From Marinobacter sp. (GTDB lineage: Bacteria; Pseudomonadota; Gammaproteobacteria; Pseudomonadales; Oleiphilaceae), in NCBI GenBank assembly GCA_029264995.1, contig JAJUKC010000012.1:1-42789 (forward strand): DNA of 42,789 bases, read 5' to 3'. Below, piece by piece: positions 28,727 through 38,640 of this stretch (within the stretch, counting starts at the first letter, position 1; each line of letters opens with the position of its first letter). The position numbers were made by a program, and so were the translations under genes. Under the pieces are notes generated by a model that was not told where the DNA came from, did no database searches, and saw only the letters and a list, made by a program, of their open reading frames with translations.

Positions 28727-30424
28727 ATGAACGGCTCACAGCACATTCTTGAAGCGTTCCACCGCCATAACATCAGCACGGTTTTCGGGTATCCGGGTGG
28801 CTGCATCATGCCCCTGTACGACGCGCTGGTGGATGACGTGGGTGTGGAGCATGTGCTGTGCCGCCACGAACAGGCCTGTGCCCTGGCGGCAGACGGTTAC
28901 GCCCGGGCCAGTGGCCAACTGGGAGTTTGTATTGCCACCTCCGGCCCCGGCGCCACCAACCTGATCACTGGCGTTGCCAATGCCTACATGGATTCCATCC
29001 CCCTGCTGGTGATCACCGGGCAGGTCCCCTCCGGATTGATTGGTACCGACGCCTTTCAGGAAACCGACATCCTTGGCATGACCCTGGGCATCGTCAAACA
29101 CAGCTACCTGGTGGATGACCCCGAAGACCTGCCGGGCATTCTGGAGGAAGCCATCGACCTGGCCCAGGCTGGCCGCCCCGGGCCGGTGTGGATTGATATT
29201 CCCAAAGATATTCTGTTGTCCGAGATTGAGGCTCCAGCCCCGGCCTGCACCGAGGCACCGCCAGCGCATTGCCCGGAGATCGGCCCGGCCCTGGCCATGC
29301 TGAGATCAGCCAGGCGGCCCCTGCTCTACAGCGGTGGTGGTGTGTCTCTGGCCGGAGCCGAAGACCGTTTTCGTACCTTTGCCGAAGTCTCGGGGCTGCC
29401 GGGCGTCGTTACCCTCAAAGGCATAGGCAACGCCGGCCGAAACAACCCGAATGATCTGGGCATGCTCGGCATGCACGGTTCCCGGGCGGCCAACAAGGCG
29501 GTTGACGAGTGCGACCTTCTGGTCGTGATCGGCGCCCGGCTGGATGACCGTGCCACCGGCAAGCTGGACGGGTTCGCGCCCAATGCCAGGATGATCCACG
29601 TTGATGCCGATGCCGCCGAGATCAACAAACTGCGGCCGGCAGACCTGTCTCTGCGTGGTGACCTGAACGCCATCCTGGCGGCATTAACCGATGCCATTGC
29701 GGCTGAGCCACTGGCCATCGACGCCTGGCAGAAACAATGCCGCACCTGGCATACCACCGGAGGCTTTCGCGCCGCAGATAACGAGGAACCGTTGGCCTCC
29801 ATTACCGGCCCCGCATTCATTCGTCAGCTTTCCGGCATTACCGGCGACAACACCATCATCGCCTGCGATGTTGGCCAGCACCAGATGTGGGTTGCCCAGT
29901 ACTACCAGTTCGCCCATCCACGCCACCACCTGACCAGTGGTGGTCTGGGCACCATGGGCTTCGGGCTTCCGGCGGCCATCGGCGCCCAGTTCTCGGACCG
30001 AACACGAACCGTCATCAACGTGACCGGTGATGGTTCGTTCATGATGAACGCACAGGAACTGGCCACCATACGGCGCTACAACCTGCCGTTGAAGCTGATC
30101 ATTCTGGACAACCAGTGCCTGGGCATGGTTCGTCAGCAACAGGAACTGTTCTACAACAACCGCGAAAGCCAGATCGATCTGGATGACAATCCGGACTTTG
30201 TCGCCATGGCCCGGGCGTTCGATATCCCGGCCCTGCACATTGAGCGGACCGACCAGATCCGCCGCGGCATCGAAACCATTCTGGCTTACAACGGCCCGAT
30301 GCTGCTGCACGTTGCCATCAGTCGTGAAGAGAACGTCTGGCCCATCGTCAAAGCCGGCGCCAGCAACAAGGAAATGATTGACGAACCCCGTAAAACGAAC
30401 AGCCGCAAGGAGCAGGTAGCATGA
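28727..30424 (+). CDS. ilvG: Acetolactate synthase large (catalytic) subunit IlvG
   Basis: This ThDP- and FAD-dependent enzyme condenses two pyruvates to 2-acetolactate, or pyruvate with 2-oxobutyrate to acetohydroxybutyrate: the first common step to valine, leucine and isoleucine. The 565 residues match E. coli IlvG (548) in order. The ThDP-activating glutamate is E48 in CRHEQACALAADGYAR. SGPGATNLITG follows at about residues 71-81. The metal-ThDP motif begins GDGSFMMNAQELATIRR at G434. The start is preceded by AAAGGG. Identification as IlvG rather than IlvB or IlvI rests on the ilvM-type small subunit and the leader. Transcription is set by the attenuator upstream. The stop overlaps ilvM by four bases. 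Confidence 0.95.
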   Translation: MNGSQHILEAFHRHNISTVFGYPGGCIMPLYDALVDDVGVEHVLCRHEQACALAADGYARASGQLGVCIATSGPGATNLITGVANAYMDSIPLLVITGQVPSGLIGTDAFQETDILGMTLGIVKHSYLVDDPEDLPGILEEAIDLAQAGRPGPVWIDIPKDILLSEIEAPAPACTEAPPAHCPEIGPALAMLRSARRPLLYSGGGVSLAGAEDRFRTFAEVSGLPGVVTLKGIGNAGRNNPNDLGMLGMHGSRAANKAVDECDLLVVIGARLDDRATGKLDGFAPNARMIHVDADAAEINKLRPADLSLRGDLNAILAALTDAIAAEPLAIDAWQKQCRTWHTTGGFRAADNEEPLASITGPAFIRQLSGITGDNTIIACDVGQHQMWVAQYYQFAHPRHHLTSGGLGTMGFGLPAAIGAQFSDRTRTVINVTGDGSFMMNAQELATIRRYNLPLKLIILDNQCLGMVRQQQELFYNNRESQIDLDDNPDFVAMARAFDIPALHIERTDQIRRGIETILAYNGPMLLHVAISREENVWPIVKAGASNKEMIDEPRKTNSRKEQVA

Positions 30425-30699
30425 AGCCGAATCATGAAAGCGCCAGTCAACGATATACCCTGAATTGCCGCATGAACCAGGAAGCGGCAGCTCTGGAGCG
30501 GCTGTGCCGGGTGGTGCGGGTACGCGGCTTCCGGATTTCCAGGATGGCCATGGAATCAACTGGCGACACCCTCGACATTGCCCTCACACTGGAGGGTTCC
30601 CGGCCAGTTGCTATGCTTCAATCTCAGCTGGAGAAACTGCATACCGTTGCCGGAGTTGAACTGGTCTCCGATACCATGGCACGGTCGCGATCAGCTTGA
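30421..30699 (+). CDS. ilvM: Acetolactate synthase small subunit IlvM
   Basis: This 92-residue regulatory subunit consists of a single ACT-type domain, as in E. coli IlvM (87 residues) and unlike the longer IlvH and IlvN-plus proteins. The typical pattern is RYTLNCRMNQEAAALERLCR, then VVRVRGFRISRMAMES and a second strand-helix unit ending in GVELVSD. It overlaps ilvG by ATGA, which suggests coupled translation and equal amounts of the subunits. ilvD follows 21 bp later. Whether the enzyme is feedback-resistant, as AHAS II is, cannot be read from sequence. Confidence 0.92.
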   Translation: MKPNHESASQRYTLNCRMNQEAAALERLCRVVRVRGFRISRMAMESTGDTLDIALTLEGSRPVAMLQSQLEKLHTVAGVELVSDTMARSRSA

Positions 30700-30720
30700 A
30701 ACGACGGAGAGGGATAACGC

Positions 30721-32397
<1,677 letters not shown>

Positions 32398-32734: not shown

Positions 32735-33178
32735 CTACCAGGCCTTGTAAGGCAGAAACTTCCCGTTCATGGTAACCACCACCCGGTCGCCCTTGGGATT
32801 CTCTTCCTTCTCAATGTCCATGGTGAAGTCAATGGCACTCATGATGCCATCCCCGAATTTCTCGTGAATCAGCGCTTTCATGGTATCGCCATACACCCCT
32901 ACCACTTCATACAGGCGATAGATCAGCGGGTCTTGGGGAACAGCGCCATCCCACGCTTTTTTGGGGCAGACCTGCAGGGCTTCGGCTACCGGCTTGTCGA
33001 GGCCGAGGGTTTCGCAGAGGGCGAAAGCCTTGTCCTCGGTGAGGCTGTTCATCCCGAGAGCCGCAGAGGTGGTGAACACCGGCGACAGCCCCACTGCCTC
33101 GGCAATCGCTTCCCAGGTCATGCCCTTGGCAACTTTGGCTTCAAGGATTTTTGCGGTCATCAGTTCTTTGTTCATCAT
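32735..33178 (-). CDS. cynS: Cyanate hydratase (cyanase)
   Basis: Cyanase converts cyanate and bicarbonate to carbamate and CO2; carbamate then yields ammonia and CO2, so cyanate serves as a nitrogen source. The frame has 147 residues. The catalytic residues R88, E91 and S114 lie in PLIYRLYEVVGVYGDTMKAL and GDGIMSAIDF, at a constant offset of eight from E. coli CynS (R96, E99, S122). The N-terminal helical domain (TAKILEAKVAKGMTWEAIAE) and the C-terminal end GKFLPYKAW also match. It starts after AGAGGAACCAACC and is the last gene of the transporter operon, 27 bp from the ATPase. No carbonic anhydrase (cynT) is nearby. Confidence 0.97.
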   Translation of the reverse strand: MMNKELMTAKILEAKVAKGMTWEAIAEAVGLSPVFTTSAALGMNSLTEDKAFALCETLGLDKPVAEALQVCPKKAWDGAVPQDPLIYRLYEVVGVYGDTMKALIHEKFGDGIMSAIDFTMDIEKEENPKGDRVVVTMNGKFLPYKAW

Positions 33179-33205: not shown

Positions 33206-34114
33206 TCAGGCATTCACCGCACGAGCGGCAGTTTCGGATTTGGTTTCAGGTTCGGCCGCCGCCGGTTCCGGCTGAGCGATACCTTTGGCAGGCTCGACAA
33301 CTTTCGGGCTGCCGTCTTGTTCCGGCAGGGCCGAGCCGCTTCGGTTGACCAGGAAGTCAACCAGGTAGTCCCGGGTCTTGTGGTAAGCCGGGTTCTGGAA
33401 AATGGTGGCCCGCGCCCGCGGATGCGGGATGTCCACTTTCACACTCTCGGCGATGCGAGCATTGGGGCCGTTGGACATCAGAAAGATGCGGTCGGACAGG
33501 AGAATGGCTTCATCGACATCGTGGGTGATCATGAACACGGTCTGGCGGGTTTCTTCCCAGATCTTCACCAGTTCATCCTGAATCACTCCTCGCGTAAGGG
33601 CATCCAGCGCGCCGAAGGGTTCATCCAGCAGCAGGAGTTCCGGCTGGGTAGCGAAGGCCCGGGCGATGCTCACCCGTTGGCGCATGCCGCCTGAGAGCTG
33701 CGAGGGCTTGCGGTTCATGGCGTGCTCCAGGCCCACCATTTTCAGGTAGCGCTCGCTGTGCTCCCTCACCTTTTCCTTGGACCAGCCGGGCCAACGGGCT
33801 TTCACCGCAAATACGATGTTGTTCAGGGCGGTTTTCCAGGGCAGCAGGCTGTAGTTCTGAAACACCACGCCGCGCTCCAGGCCCGGGCCCTTTACTTCCT
33901 TGCCGTTCATCACCACGTTGCCGGCGCTGGCTTCGTCCAGGCCAGCCAGCACGTTCAGGATGGTGGATTTGCCGCAGCCGGAGTGGCCGATGATGCAGAC
34001 GAACTCGCCTTTTTCCAGGGCAAAGCGGATATCCTCGAAGACGGTCAGCTCACCGCCCTGGCCATCCGGATAGACTTTGGACAGGCCATCTACTTCCAGG
34101 AATGGTTTACTCAT
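33206..34114 (-). CDS. ABC transporter ATPase, nitrate/cyanate type (CynD/NrtD-like)
   Basis: This 302-residue ATP-binding subunit belongs to the nitrate/sulfonate/taurine importer class. Walker A is GHSGCGKST (about 43-51), the Q-loop VVFQNYSLLPW, the signature LSGGMRQRV, Walker B LLLLDEPFGALD and the switch histidine MITHDVDEA. A 35-residue Ala/Pro/Glu-rich tail follows the catalytic fold and is unusual for the class. A GGAGACCTGTT site precedes the start. The gene order (binding protein, permease, ATPase, cynS) matches cyanobacterial cynABDS, so cyanate is the favoured substrate; nitrate or nitrite cannot be excluded from sequence. Confidence 0.92.
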   Translation of the reverse strand: MSKPFLEVDGLSKVYPDGQGGELTVFEDIRFALEKGEFVCIIGHSGCGKSTILNVLAGLDEASAGNVVMNGKEVKGPGLERGVVFQNYSLLPWKTALNNIVFAVKARWPGWSKEKVREHSERYLKMVGLEHAMNRKPSQLSGGMRQRVSIARAFATQPELLLLDEPFGALDALTRGVIQDELVKIWEETRQTVFMITHDVDEAILLSDRIFLMSNGPNARIAESVKVDIPHPRARATIFQNPAYHKTRDYLVDFLVNRSGSALPEQDGSPKVVEPAKGIAQPEPAAAEPETKSETAARAVNA

Positions 34115-34169: not shown

Positions 34170-34997
34170 TCATTCTTTGTACTCCACCAGTTTCTGGGCC
34201 TTGCCCAGGGCGAGGTCCAGCAGCATGCCCACCACCCCGATCATCAGGATGGAGAAGATCACACTGGCCAGATCCAGGTTGTTCCACTCGTTCCACACGT
34301 AGTAGCCAATGCCGGTGCCGCCCACGAGCATTTCCGCCGCCACGATGACCAGCCAGGCAATACCGATGGAGATGCGCATGCCGGTCAGGATGGTGGGCGC
34401 GGCCGCCGGCAGAATCACGGTTAACGCGGTTTTGATCGGCCCCAGTTCGTGGGTTCTGGCCACGTTCACCCAATCCTGCCGGACATTGGCCACACCAAAG
34501 GCGGTGTTAAGCAGCATCGGCCAGATCGAGCAGATGAAGATCACGAAGATGGCCGAGGCGTCCGAGTCCTGGATGATGAACAGGGCCAGGGGCATCCAGG
34601 CCAGCGGCGAAATCGGCCGCAAAACCTGGATGTAGGGGTTCAGGGCCTTGTACATCAGCGGAGACATACCGATCAGGAACCCCAGCGGCAAGGCGATGGC
34701 CATGGCCGCCAGGTAGCCGGTAAGTACCCGGTACACCGAATAGGCCAGCTGGATGCCGATACCCTTGTCGTTGGCGCCGGCGTCGTAGAACGGATTCGAC
34801 AGCTCGGCCCAGGCCAGCTTGATCACCGCTGATGGGGGCGGTACGCGGGATTCCTGGTCAGCGCCACCCATGAGCATTTCGTATTCGCTCATTCCGGTCT
34901 GGGCTTCCGGCGGCTGGGTTGCCATTTCCCACAGCCCCAGGGCCACAATCAGGAACGACACCGACAGCAACGCCGCCCGTATGTTCAGGGAAGCCAT
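34170..34997 (-). CDS. ABC transporter permease, nitrate/cyanate type (CynB/NrtB-like)
   Basis: This 275-residue inner-membrane permease of the importer has one N-terminal helix (about 7-26), then a polar stretch of about 60 residues. Five helices of the BPD_transp_1 fold follow, from YRVLTGYLAAMAIALPLGFL to the C-terminus. The ATPase-coupling loop is in the region TALTVILPAAAPTILTGMRI, as in NrtB and SsuC relatives. LRPISPLAWMPLALFI is a conserved motif of this group. GGGAGGGTG precedes the start, which lies two bases after the binding-protein stop. The polar stretch after helix 1 (MSEYEMLMGGADQESRVPPP) is longer than in SsuC. Confidence 0.91.
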   Translation of the reverse strand: MASLNIRAALLSVSFLIVALGLWEMATQPPEAQTGMSEYEMLMGGADQESRVPPPSAVIKLAWAELSNPFYDAGANDKGIGIQLAYSVYRVLTGYLAAMAIALPLGFLIGMSPLMYKALNPYIQVLRPISPLAWMPLALFIIQDSDASAIFVIFICSIWPMLLNTAFGVANVRQDWVNVARTHELGPIKTALTVILPAAAPTILTGMRISIGIAWLVIVAAEMLVGGTGIGYYVWNEWNNLDLASVIFSILMIGVVGMLLDLALGKAQKLVEYKE

Positions 34998-34999
34998 GG

Positions 35000-36421
35000 T
35001 TACACCCTCCCGATCGCAAAGCTGCGGGCATACTCTTCCGCGCTGTCCGGATCAAAAGTCTTGCCCATGATGATGTGGGTCTTGTAGGTCTTGTCCGGCG
35101 CGCTGTAGCCCATCTCCTCCATGAGCTTGCCGGTTTCTCCAGCCAGGTAGACCTGCTCGGCGATGCCCTTGTAATCCACGTCGCCCTCGATGTAGCCCCA
35201 GCGCTTCATCTGGGTGAGGATCCACACACCCATGGAATGCCAGGGGAACGGATCGAAATCGATGCGATCCGGCACATTCTTCACCTCGCCCAGGCCGTCC
35301 GCGTAGTACCCGGTCAGCACCTGCTGTATTACCGGGACCGGCTGGTTCAGGTAGTTCTTGGGCGCGATGGCTTCGGAAATTTCCTTTCGGTTTTCAGGGT
35401 TGTTGGAGTATTGGGTGGCATCAATGATGGCGCGCAGCAGGGCTCCATAGGTATTCGGATTCTGAGTCGCAAACTGCTGGCTGCAGGCGAAGGCGCAGCA
35501 GGGGTGACCTTCCCAGATATCCTTGGTAAGCATGTGAATGAAGCCCACCTTCTCCCACACGGCACGCTGGTTGAACGGGTCCGGTGACAGGTAGCCATCG
35601 AGGTTACCGGCACGCAGGTTGGCCACCATCTCGGGTGGCGGAACCACTCGGATCTGCACGTCCTTGTCCGGGTCGATACCGTTCTCGGCCAGGTAGTAAC
35701 GCAGCAGGAAGTTGTGCATGGAGTATTCGAACGGCACGCCGAACTTGAAGCCCTTCCACTGCTTGGGATCGCGTTTGTCCTTGTGGTCCACGTGCAGCAC
35801 GATGGCCTGGCCGTTGATGTTCTCCACGGCCGGCATGATGAACGGCTCCGGTGTGGAACCGGCACCCATGGTCATGGCCAGGGGCATTGGGGTGAGCATA
35901 TGGGACGCGTCGTATTCACCGGCCAGGGACTTGTCCCGGGCCACGGCCCAGCCCGCAGTCTTGGTCACGGTCACGTCCAGGCCGTAGCGCTCATAGAAGC
36001 CCATGGGGTGAGCCATAATGATCGGCGTGGCACAGGTAATGGGTACAAAGCCGACGTTCAGTTTGGTCTTCTCAAGCTTGCCGAGGGATTCCTTAACCGC
36101 AGCCTTGGCCTTGTCCATGGGGAACACGCTGCCCAGCAGCGCGGCGGCGGTGCCCGCACCCATCATTTTCATGAAGCTGCGGCGGCTGTGGTCGTTGTGG
36201 CCGAATACGGAGCGGACAACGGCGCTCTCGATGGCTCGGTCCATCATCTCTTCTGAATTCAGTGGCGCCTCCGATGCATCCTGCCTGCTGACGGAAGATT
36301 TTAGGTCCAGCGAAATTGCCGGGGCGTCCTGGCCGGGCTTACAGTCCGGGCAGCCACAGGTTTTGGCGTGGATCAGCGATTTGTCTCCATCAAACGGATT
36401 ACCAAGGCTCTTTGTCGTCAT
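35000..36421 (-). CDS. Tat-exported substrate-binding protein, nitrate/cyanate type (CynA/NrtA-like)
   Basis: This 473-residue periplasmic binding protein feeds the ABC importer. A full Tat signal lies unusually deep: SRRSFMKMMGAGTAAALLG at residues 79-97, with a possible cleavage site near 105-108. Before it is an 80-residue hydrophilic region with a cysteine cluster, CGCPDC, at 22-27. The mature part is NrtA/CmpA-like: LNVGFVPITCATPIIMAHPM, YERYGLDVTV, GVPFEYSMHNFLLRYYLAEN and SPDPFNQRAVWEKVGF. The start at 36421 has AGGAGAG in front, supporting the long form. It is the first gene of the operon, with a sigma-54 promoter about 120 bp upstream. Cyanate is the favoured ligand because of cynS. 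Confidence 0.92.
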   Translation of the reverse strand: MTTKSLGNPFDGDKSLIHAKTCGCPDCKPGQDAPAISLDLKSSVSRQDASEAPLNSEEMMDRAIESAVVRSVFGHNDHSRRSFMKMMGAGTAAALLGSVFPMDKAKAAVKESLGKLEKTKLNVGFVPITCATPIIMAHPMGFYERYGLDVTVTKTAGWAVARDKSLAGEYDASHMLTPMPLAMTMGAGSTPEPFIMPAVENINGQAIVLHVDHKDKRDPKQWKGFKFGVPFEYSMHNFLLRYYLAENGIDPDKDVQIRVVPPPEMVANLRAGNLDGYLSPDPFNQRAVWEKVGFIHMLTKDIWEGHPCCAFACSQQFATQNPNTYGALLRAIIDATQYSNNPENRKEISEAIAPKNYLNQPVPVIQQVLTGYYADGLGEVKNVPDRIDFDPFPWHSMGVWILTQMKRWGYIEGDVDYKGIAEQVYLAGETGKLMEEMGYSAPDKTYKTHIIMGKTFDPDSAEEYARSFAIGRV

Positions 36422-36537
36422 GGGGCACTCTCCTGAAGTACGGGTCGTTTATGCACTCTTGCGGTGCAGTAAAGTGGTGACTCGGCTCCCGGAGAGAATC
36501 TGCTCCCGGGCCGACAACACGTTCTGGAGGAGATATC

Positions 36538-36553
36538 GCAGGGTTTGTGCCAA
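36538..36553 (-). promoter_or_regulatory. Sigma-54 promoter of the cyanate operon
   Basis: On the minus strand the sequence reads TTGGCACAAACCCTGC. The GG (-24, complement of 36550-36551) and GC (-12, complement of 36538-36539) are separated by exactly 10 bp, and TTGGCAC is a perfect -24 element. It faces the binding-protein gene. Transcription would start near 36526, giving a leader of about 105 nt. The divergent gene encodes a sigma-54 activator, which strengthens the call. Confidence 0.8.
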
Positions 36554-36617
36554 CCCCAAAAAAATATTTAACACCTTGTTTTATATTGCTTTTATTTTTC
36601 TTCGGTGCTTCCTGCCA

Positions 36618-36635
36618 ATTACGAACTTTCGTAAT
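36618..36635. promoter_or_regulatory. Palindromic activator site A
   Basis: ATTACGAACTTTCGTAAT is a perfect palindrome of two 8-bp arms and a 2-bp centre. It lies about 100 bp upstream of the predicted cyanate-operon start, the usual place for sigma-54 activator sites. It shares the half-site TTCGTA/TACGAA with site B. Assignment to the divergent activator is inference. Confidence 0.6.
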
Positions 36636-36642
36636 TAACGAT

Positions 36643-36666
36643 ATTTCGTAGCCTCCACTACGAAAT
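36643..36666. promoter_or_regulatory. Palindromic activator site B
   Basis: ATTTCGTAG (36643-36651) and CTACGAAAT (36658-36666) are exact reverse complements with a 6-bp centre, and the arms contain the same TTCGTA core as site A. The site ends eight bases before the sigma-54-like element of the regulator gene, so it may also serve autoregulation. Confidence 0.6.
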
Positions 36667-36673
36667 TTCAGAG

Positions 36674-36690
36674 TTGGCACAAGGTTTGTT
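36674..36690 (+). promoter_or_regulatory. Sigma-54-like promoter of the regulator gene
   Basis: TTGGCACAAGGTTTGT faces the activator gene. The -24 half TTGGCAC is perfect; the -12 half reads TTTGT, with GT in place of the usual GC at the right 10-bp spacing. It is therefore a weaker candidate. A start near 36700 would leave about 24 nt before the ATG at 36724, which has AAAGGACA in front. Confidence 0.5.
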
Positions 36691-36723
36691 CTGTCTCTGT
36701 CAGGCCAGAGAAAGGACAACCCG

Positions 36724-38640
36724 ATGACAATCAAAGCCGCGATAACATCCACCAGTACCACCAGCTGGATTGACCACCTGCCGGAGGCGGCGCTGCTGGT
36801 GGATGCCGGGCGCGATCTCATCATCGCTGCCAACAGCGCCATGGGGCGGCTGGTCGGAACCGACAGACAGTCTCTGATTGGTACTCCCTGTACCCACCTG
36901 TTCACCGACCAGCGGCCTCAGCTCATCGCCTTTACCGAGGAAACCCTGTTTCGCAGTCATGGCTGGAGCCGGGATTTCATCCTGCAGCATCGGGATGGGC
37001 GCAACGTGGAGCTGGAGATTTCTTCCTCACGGGTGGGTGAAGCCGAATCCCAGAGCCTCCTGCTACTGCTTCGGGACCGGCGCCAGCTGCGCACCTTGCG
37101 GGAACGACACGACGCCAACCACTACCACCGGGGTGGCCTGCTGGAATGGCGGCGGGTAGAAGAACTGTTCAAGGACATGGAGCGGGAAAACCAGTTGATC
37201 CTGCACGCGGTGGGCGAAGGCATTTACGGGGTGGATGCCGAGGGACGGACGACCTTTGCCAACCCGGCAGCGGAACGCATGCTGGGCTGGCGCATTGACG
37301 AACTGATGGGAAGGGTGATTCACCGGGTGGTGCACCACTCCCACGAAGACGGCAGCATCTTCCCCCTGAAAGAATGCCCTATCTATGCCGCGTTTCGGGA
37401 CGCCAGTGTAAAACGGGTTGGCGAGGACTGGTTCTGGCGCAAGGATGGCACCGGCTTTCCGGTGGAATACACCAGTACGCCCATTATAGACAATGGCCAC
37501 CCGGTTGGTGCCGTGGTGGTGTTTCGCGATATCTCTGCCCGGCTTGAGACTCAGAAGGAATTGCAAAAAGCACTGGAGGAAGTGGAAACCCTGAAACACC
37601 GCCTGGAAATGGAAAACGCCTACCTTCAGGAAGAACTCAGTGCGGAATACCACTTTCACGAAATTTTAGGCCAGAGCGATGCTATCAAAGCCATCGTGCG
37701 CAGAATCGGAATGGTCGCCCCAACCGATGCCAACGTGTTGATCACCGGGGAATCCGGTACCGGCAAGGAACTCATTGCCCGGGCCATTCATCAGTCAAGC
37801 AGCCGGAGGGATCGCCCCCTGATCCGGGTAAACTGCGCAGCGATTCCCAAGGATCTGTTTGAGAGTGAGTTCTTTGGCCATGTAAAGGGTGCCTTTACCG
37901 GAGCCGTCAGTGACCGGGTTGGTCGCTTCGAGCTCGCCGATGGGGGTACCCTTTTTCTGGATGAAGTGGGCGAGATCCCACTGGAGCTCCAGGGCAAGCT
38001 GCTGCGGGTCTTGCAGGATCAACAGTTCGAACGCGTGGGGGAAAACCACACCCGAGCCGTGGACGTTCGTGTCATTGCCGCCACCAACCGCGACCTGAAA
38101 ACCGAGGTCCGGGACAAAAACTTCCGGGAGGATCTGTACTTTCGCCTGAATGTGTTCCCTATTGAGTCGGTGCCGTTGCGCCGACGTATCGAGGACATTC
38201 CCATTCTCGCCCAGGAGTTTCTGAACCGGGCGTGCCAGAAATTCAACCGGCCACCGCTGGCACTCCGGGAGCGGGACGTGGAAACGCTCAAAGCTTACCC
38301 GTGGCCAGGCAATGTTCGGGAGCTGGAAAACGTTATTGAACGTCAGGTAATCACAGCCGATGGCCGGCTGGATCTGGACCTGCAGGGTCCGGATTCTGCC
38401 GCCAGACACACGCTGGAACCCATGCCGCCAGCCAGGCATTTCGACGGTGAACTGATGACAGAGCACGAACTCAGGGAGCTTGAGACAAACAACCTGAGAC
38501 GAGCCCTGAAAATCAGTGGCGGCCGGGTGTTCGGCGACGATGGCGCCGCTGCGCTGCTGGGTGTCAAACCGACCACCCTGTCCTCACGCCTGAAAAAGCT
38601 GAAAATCGAACCGCGACAATTCCAGGAACGGGATCTTTAA
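36724..38640 (+). CDS. PAS-domain sigma-54-dependent activator (bEBP)
   Basis: This 638-residue NtrC-class activator has PAS input in place of a receiver domain. The first PAS-like region is about 15-125. A second, clearer PAS at about 155-275 contains HHSHEDGSIFPLKECPIY and VEYTSTPI. A short coiled coil (about 277-308) leads into the AAA+ domain at about 312-545. Walker A is GESGTGKE (342-349), the sigma-54 contact loop GAFTGA (389-394) and Walker B GGTLFLDEVGEI. A Fis-type helix-turn-helix (about 590-630) ends the protein (DGAAALLGVKPTTLSSRLKK). It diverges from the cyanate operon, whose promoter is of the sigma-54 type, so it is very probably its activator. The PAS signal is unknown. Confidence 0.95.
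   Translation: MTIKAAITSTSTTSWIDHLPEAALLVDAGRDLIIAANSAMGRLVGTDRQSLIGTPCTHLFTDQRPQLIAFTEETLFRSHGWSRDFILQHRDGRNVELEISSSRVGEAESQSLLLLLRDRRQLRTLRERHDANHYHRGGLLEWRRVEELFKDMERENQLILHAVGEGIYGVDAEGRTTFANPAAERMLGWRIDELMGRVIHRVVHHSHEDGSIFPLKECPIYAAFRDASVKRVGEDWFWRKDGTGFPVEYTSTPIIDNGHPVGAVVVFRDISARLETQKELQKALEEVETLKHRLEMENAYLQEELSAEYHFHEILGQSDAIKAIVRRIGMVAPTDANVLITGESGTGKELIARAIHQSSSRRDRPLIRVNCAAIPKDLFESEFFGHVKGAFTGAVSDRVGRFELADGGTLFLDEVGEIPLELQGKLLRVLQDQQFERVGENHTRAVDVRVIAATNRDLKTEVRDKNFREDLYFRLNVFPIESVPLRRRIEDIPILAQEFLNRACQKFNRPPLALRERDVETLKAYPWPGNVRELENVIERQVITADGRLDLDLQGPDSAARHTLEPMPPARHFDGELMTEHELRELETNNLRRALKISGGRVFGDDGAAALLGVKPTTLSSRLKKLKIEPRQFQERDL

Follow-up and report, generated by a model that had tools for sequence, protein, structure and literature searches.

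The 42,789-nucleotide (nt) stretch of Marinobacter sp. DNA analysed here (contig JAJUKC010000012.1; hereafter referred to as the window) very probably contains the Marinobacter copy of a CynF-controlled cyanate assimilation locus, in which CynF acts from three palindromes on a sigma-54 promoter. Both in the sea and in waste polluted with cyanide, cyanate serves as a nitrogen source. The CynF switch known from a single Pseudomonas occurs widely, as many loci, that of the window among them, show. Sequence analysis and comparison establish the cyn genes, their promoter, an array of operators and the link between this array and CynF, and the control region, as judged from these comparisons, is real and well conserved within a known kind of locus. 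The conserved operator array allows prediction of the cyanase genes under CynF control, names the exact bases to mutate, and connects the use of cyanate with that of cyanide through a single family of regulators. As far as the literature found goes, the predicted operators, the candidate NtrC-type site and the cynF-facing element add to the published description of CynF.

The published system is that of Pseudomonas pseudoalcaligenes CECT5344 (now P. oleovorans), in which the genes are laid out as cynFABDS and CynF is essential for cynABDS expression, as shown by a mutant (passages of PMC6627978). The same passages report a predicted sigma-54 promoter before cynA, induction of cyn expression by cyanate and its repression by ammonium, and similar cyn arrangements both elsewhere in Pseudomonas and among Alpha-, Beta- and Gammaproteobacteria. 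In addition, a 2025 survey of sigma-54 regulons found cyanate lyase to be enriched in Alpha- and Gammaproteobacteria (passages of PMC12316311). The original prediction proposed sigma-54 control of the cyanate genes by a dedicated, divergent PAS-type activator and regarded this wiring as little described. The former is well supported by the conserved promoter and the CECT5344 genetics, whereas the latter fails because CECT5344 has the same layout, a predicted promoter and a CynF mutant, and the wiring is thus not new.

In the window, a 302-base pair (bp) gap (36422–36723) separates a minus-strand operon, encoding a binding protein, a permease, an ATPase and a cyanase, from a plus-strand bEBP gene (Table 1). 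Pfam and the translation confirmed the predicted arrangement of a bEBP with GAFTGA and PAS domains, lacking a receiver domain, divergent from a binding protein–permease–ATPase–cynS operon. The genome containing the window is incomplete (72.85% complete), and both the RpoN and NtrC genes were found in it (NtrC at C82). Among the matches listed, the closest named relatives by CynF sequence are Marinobacter. Genes resembling those for acetolactate synthase and dihydroxyacid dehydratase, as judged by eye from the translations, occupy 28727–32397 and are oriented toward cynS; an acetolactate-synthase-like gene is also close to cynS in L031.

Table 1 Predicted genes and control elements of the cyn locus in the window
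Feature	Position	Strand	Sequence	Basis or remark
cynS, cyanase	32735..33178	-		Pfam Cyanate_lyase; exceeds TIGR00673 and NF002773 cut-offs
cynD, ABC ATPase	33206..34114	-		Pfam ABC_tran; exceeds NCBIfam ntrCD cut-off
cynB, ABC permease	34170..34997	-		Pfam BPD_transp_1; exceeds NCBIfam ntrB nitrate permease cut-off
cynA, NMT1_2-type binding protein with TAT signal	35000..36421	-		Pfam
NtrC-type palindrome in cynA leader (candidate)	36452..36468		TGCACTCTTGCGGTGCA	Centre about +66 from inferred start
Sigma-54 promoter of cynABDS (predicted), GG-N10-GC	36538..36553	-	TTGGCACAAACCCTGC	Sequence and conservation
Operator 1 (predicted)	36620..36633		TACGAACTTTCGTA	Palindrome, comparison
Operator 2 (predicted)	36637..36650		AACGATATTTCGTA	17 bp from operator 1
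Operator 3 (predicted)	36659..36672		TACGAAATTTCAGA	Degenerate, 2 mismatches; 22 bp from operator 2
Imperfect sigma-54 element facing cynF	36675..36690	+	TGGCACAAGGTTTGTT	T replaces C of the -12 GC
cynF, two-PAS bEBP	36724..38640	+		Pfam PAS (two stretches) and Sigma54_activat

CynF comprises two N-terminal PAS domains and a Sigma54_activat AAA+ domain, as assigned by Pfam, which lists no receiver domain for it, and GAFTGA is present in its translation. The C terminus contains a helix–turn–helix (HTH)-like stretch (GAAALLGVKPTTLSSRLKK), which was read by eye, is similar in relatives and matches no Pfam HTH family at E 0.001. A structural model of residues 1 to 321 shows two PAS-like units with a helix between them (mean pLDDT 82.7, pTM 0.47). 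The protein is 56–57% identical to the Pseudomonas cyn-linked regulators compared, a set apart from the CECT5344 protein itself, and falls in one family with such regulators, P. mendocina included, in our tree. Other identities were considered and rejected: the regulator scores below the cut-offs for NorR (366.2 bits versus 476; PAS domains are listed and GAF is not), FhlA (372.9 versus 830 bits) and NtrC (320.7 versus 558.6 bits; no receiver is listed, and the genome has its own NtrC at C82). It is not NitA, as its neighbours are cynABDS rather than nitB–nitH and the tree sets the window in a cyn clade.

CynF and NitA cluster in the tree as a single starred group, apart from other PAS bEBPs, and the window lies inside a cyn clade. 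The NitA rows are compact (100, with L158) among cyn-linked rows, although their precise position lacks starred support (85). The tree was built without 20 rows judged by eye to be close kin, two short rows, two intended outgroups lacking a usable open reading frame (ORF), L100 and L102, and the first-set cyn loci described below. The regulator of L158 (Pseudomonas fluorescens C2), which groups with NitA, has three palindromes upstream, and neither nit nor cyn genes were found in its locus.

A cyanate-dependent signal would enter through the PAS domains of CynF; for CECT5344, the passages name neither a ligand nor a sensing domain. It is possible, though unlikely, that CynF instead responds to another signal, such as cyanide, nitrogen starvation or redox state, and that cyanate acts indirectly: the CynF relative NitA sits at a cyanide–nitrilase cluster with the same operator type, and PAS2 shows a generic similarity to solved PAS domains, including those of FixL and DosP. 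The solved relatives of PAS2 form a mixed group of PAS domains in which FixL is one of the weak matches, and PAS2 alone is also matched by other bEBP-sized proteins. Candidate haem- or metal-binding residues in PAS2 are H200, H204 and C218, which are invariant, and H205 and H207, which are nearly so (42 rows). Arguing against another signal, cyanate raises CECT5344 cyanase about 15-fold over starvation (2677 versus 176; Table 1 of PMC6627978, the part concerned), and CynF remains with cynS across transporter changes, as seen in the comparison of loci.

The cyanase family is present in 68 of the 293 genomes of the order. We fetched 68 cynS loci of 73 listed places (first set), with the window's own locus and four partial ones excluded. 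A CynF homologue with an N-terminal PAS region is linked to cynS in 20 of these 68 loci (truncated at a contig end in L034) and is missing from the other 48, which are most of the cyanase loci fetched for the order. Fifteen of the 20 CynF–cynS loci contain cynABD, three have cynS directly divergent from cynF, and two have an intervening gene. This intervening gene encodes a formate/nitrite-family (FNT) transporter, which also follows cynS in two of the three directly divergent loci. The FNT assignment is based on Pfam for L074, L084 and L091 and on likeness of the N terminus for L078. An FNT gene adjoins cynS under CynF where CynABD is missing in these four loci and in L130, L131 and L132. FNT genes next to cynS have already been noted in nitrifiers (passages of PMC10753782), and the FNT protein beside cynS is a candidate cyanate channel. 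In L122, L126, L129, L149, L155, L174 and L031, cynF is directly divergent from cynS and no CynABD match was found; the first six of these also have no FNT match at the threshold used. The transporter looks exchangeable while CynF and cynS stay together.

A search of the 293 genomes with the N-terminal 300 residues of CynF returned 26 matches spanning both PAS domains, of which 21, the window included, lie at cynS; the same bEBP therefore adjoins cynS in other genomes, which was a proposed check of the original prediction. Another match (L100) lies at cynABD on a contig end, and two adjoin nit-type genes, with nitrilase, radical SAM, GNAT and AIRS in L103 and nitrilase in L099 (Pfam). L101 is nit-like by ORF layout alone, and the remaining match is L102. 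The second set (named loci) consists of the best 80 of at least 563 confirmed candidates and is skewed to close kin, Marinobacter above all; it overlaps the cynS-drawn set, as seen from contigs of equal length (for example, L031 and L126, and L091 and L132). Among these best 80 of at least 563, 69 loci are cyn, eight are nit and three are neither. The 69 cyn loci comprise 54 with cynABD and cynS, six with cynABD and no cynS in the locus, six with cynS directly divergent and three with cynS and FNT. Counts over 81 regions below refer to the best 80 of at least 563 plus the window, and counts over 78 regions additionally exclude L113, L147 and L158, in which a recognised neighbour is absent.

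The predicted operator array consists of three ACG-N6-CGT palindromes, spaced 17–18 and then 20–23 bp, between the divergent genes. With three or fewer mismatches of 18, the triple was found in 75 of the 81 regions (best 80 of at least 563 plus the window), as compared with 2 of 810 shuffles preserving base content only; the regions without it are L137, L138, L139, L142, L147 and L164. Its commonest spacings in the same regions are 17+22 (36), 17+23 (17) and 17+21 (10). Of the 78 regions, 67 contain two or more exact palindromes, where dinucleotide shuffles average 0.31 (at most 2), and an exact 17-bp operator pair occurs in 44 of 78 versus none in 100 dinucleotide shuffles. Elsewhere in the same named loci (best 80 of at least 563), this pair was not found in 1,080,204 bp, and in the genome containing the window it occurs once, at the cyn gap. 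A stricter ACGA-N4-TCGT pair has a match in 13 of the 41 genomes of the genus, one each, with the place established for the window and G169.

The array accompanies CynF. Among the cynS-drawn loci, scanned in both orientations, the triple at two or fewer mismatches is present in 18 of the 20 with CynF and in none of the 48 without it, and L096 is the only one of the 48 with a triple at three mismatches. The two CynF-bearing loci in which no triple was found at three or fewer mismatches, L035 (apparently the same contig as L139) and L079, have kept the sigma-54 promoter; by eye, L079 lacks palindromes and L035 has variant half-sites. On this comparative evidence, the three-palindrome array is probably the code that CynF reads in many related bacteria. 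Our literature search, which covered listings and passages, found no published account of these palindromes. The main text of PMC6627978 mentions none of enhancer, UAS, palindrome, inverted repeat and NtrC, and passages of PMC5333837, PMC6504805 and PMC6368324 added nothing on operators.

The cynA leader contains a candidate NtrC-type site, TGCAC-N7-GTGCA, which is the core of the NtrC enhancer listed in passages of PMC4987338. The motif has zero mismatches in 17 and one mismatch in another 17 of the 81 regions (best 80 of at least 563 plus the window), whereas shuffles preserving base content yielded 0.85 of 81 at one or fewer mismatches and none at zero. Among these 34 sites, 27 lie 73–86 bases from the promoter element, and those in L127, L135, L138, L148, L151, L164 and L172 lie outside this range. 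The genome containing the window has five exact sites; the other four lie upstream of gltB, upstream of ntrB, in the interior of an open frame and on a short contig. The sites preceding gltB and ntrB (position 1501 in both L185 and L188) are as expected for the Ntr regulon.

It is conceivable that the cynA sigma-54 promoter is activated chiefly by NtrC, acting from 36452–36468, and that CynF merely modulates it, as the site recurs well beyond the shuffled count, mostly 73–86 bases from the promoter element, and exact sites are rare in the genome. We consider this very improbable. The CynF mutant of CECT5344 shows no cyanase under any of the nitrogen regimes tested, including starvation (Table 1 of PMC6627978, the part concerned), and in the window the NtrC-type site is downstream of the inferred cynA start. 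Moreover, Marinobacter accounts for 25 of the 34 regions with the site, the window included. Of the 47 regions in which it is lacking (more than one mismatch), 34 are cyn loci having the CynF array, among them all ten from Pseudomonas and Stutzerimonas (best 80 of at least 563 plus the window). The site was not found at two or fewer mismatches in any of these ten, and it therefore cannot explain ammonium repression in Pseudomonas. The leader site would account for ammonium control of the cyn genes in Marinobacter.

The GG-N10-GC promoter predicted upstream of the cyn operon, on the minus strand at 36538–36553, is present as described, and its position places the putative transcription start of cynABDS near 36526. 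A relaxed -24/-12 search of the window yielded 230 matches, as compared with 235.65 expected, and we therefore dropped the notion that such a match is significant on its own. Because the window has no motif excess, the case for the promoter rests on conservation. A cyn-facing GG-N10-GC scoring at least 9 of 11 is present in all 21 loci of the first set (20 cynS-drawn CynF loci and the window). In the second set (best 80 of at least 563 plus the window), 74 of the 78 gaps between the divergent genes have a site at this score, where dinucleotide shuffles gave a mean of 2.32 and a maximum of 5. The motif thus exceeds chance, as it is conserved on the cyn-facing strand across both of these overlapping sets. 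That it is a chance match and that a sigma-70 promoter drives the operon, as its lack of enrichment within the window might suggest, is scarcely credible in view of this same-strand conservation and of the result that no sigma-70-type promoter matched in 36400–36750, the cynF side included.

A second, imperfect sigma-54 element faces cynF. This TGGCAC-N5-TTG motif lies 3–5 bp past operator 3, or at the matching distance where operator 3 is degenerate, and scores at least 7 of 9 in 51 of the 81 regions (best 80 of at least 563 plus the window), with the threshold picked after viewing these regions. With the loci classed by record title, it is present in 50 of 58 gammaproteobacterial loci (the nit group, L147 and L158 apart), in one of 13 alphaproteobacterial loci (L170, in which it is oddly placed) and in none of the eight nit loci. 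The canonical -12 element has a C. In the cynF-facing element, the base after TTG is T in 25, A in 15, G in 10 and C in one, so that C is absent in 50 of 51 (same regions). The element may start cynF weakly, hold polymerase or merely compete.

Collectively, these observations suggest a model in which CynF would bind the three palindromes, which precede the inferred cynA start by about 100–140 bp, assemble on the array and remodel the sigma-54 RNA polymerase waiting at the promoter. The cynABDS genes would then be transcribed, and cyanate would be taken up and cleaved to ammonium and CO2. In Marinobacter, nitrogen status would be added via NtrC at the leader site. We propose, only tentatively, a wider scheme in which CynF and NitA are one family reading a common three-palindrome code in Alpha- and Gammaproteobacteria and thereby governing the use of nitrogen from cyanate and from cyanide or nitriles, Marinobacter and several other Gammaproteobacteria have a two-input cyn gate (CynF upstream and NtrC in the leader), and the cynF-facing element holds polymerase without strong firing and tunes cynF.

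A comparison with known systems places the locus among sigma-54-dependent switches. The E. coli norR–norVW region resembles the window in having three enhancer sites, a divergent gap and one sigma-54 promoter (passages of PMC2941729), whereas NorR differs from CynF in its GAF domain, NO signal and GT-N7-AC enhancer (passages of PMC4987338). The FhlA enhancer, CATTTCGTACGAAATG (passages of PMC4987338), shares the TTTCGTA/TACGAAA halves of the CynF operators in reversed order; FhlA differs from the window regulator in the genes controlled and in the below-cut-off model score. NitA of the nit1C cyanide cluster is described as a sigma-54 regulator of the Fis family whose gene runs opposite to nitBCDEFGH (passages of PMC11049912). 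It belongs to the same two-PAS bEBP family as CynF, with the same palindrome type and triple and a divergent sigma-54 promoter. By contrast, NitA loci adjoin nitrilase genes, their operator 1–2 spacing is 18 bp in all eight named loci versus 17 bp in most cyn loci, and none of the eight has a regulator-facing element scoring at least 7 (best 80 of at least 563). Triple palindromes of the same type as in the cyn loci, together with a NitA-type regulator and a sigma-54 promoter, are present in the nit loci L156, L171, L175, L176 and L179–L182 and in L099 and L103, in which the palindromes were recognised by eye. The closest likeness of arrangement is to cynFABDS of CECT5344, which shares the divergent sigma-54-type regulator, the ABC transporter and cyanase in one operon, and the predicted promoter before cynA; the cynF–cynA gap of 268 bp is similar to that of the window. 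A sigma-70 promoter is predicted for cynF in CECT5344 (passages of PMC6627978), whereas no match to one was found in the gap region of the window. Unlike the ten Pseudomonas and Stutzerimonas cyn loci, the window has an NtrC-type site in the cynA leader.
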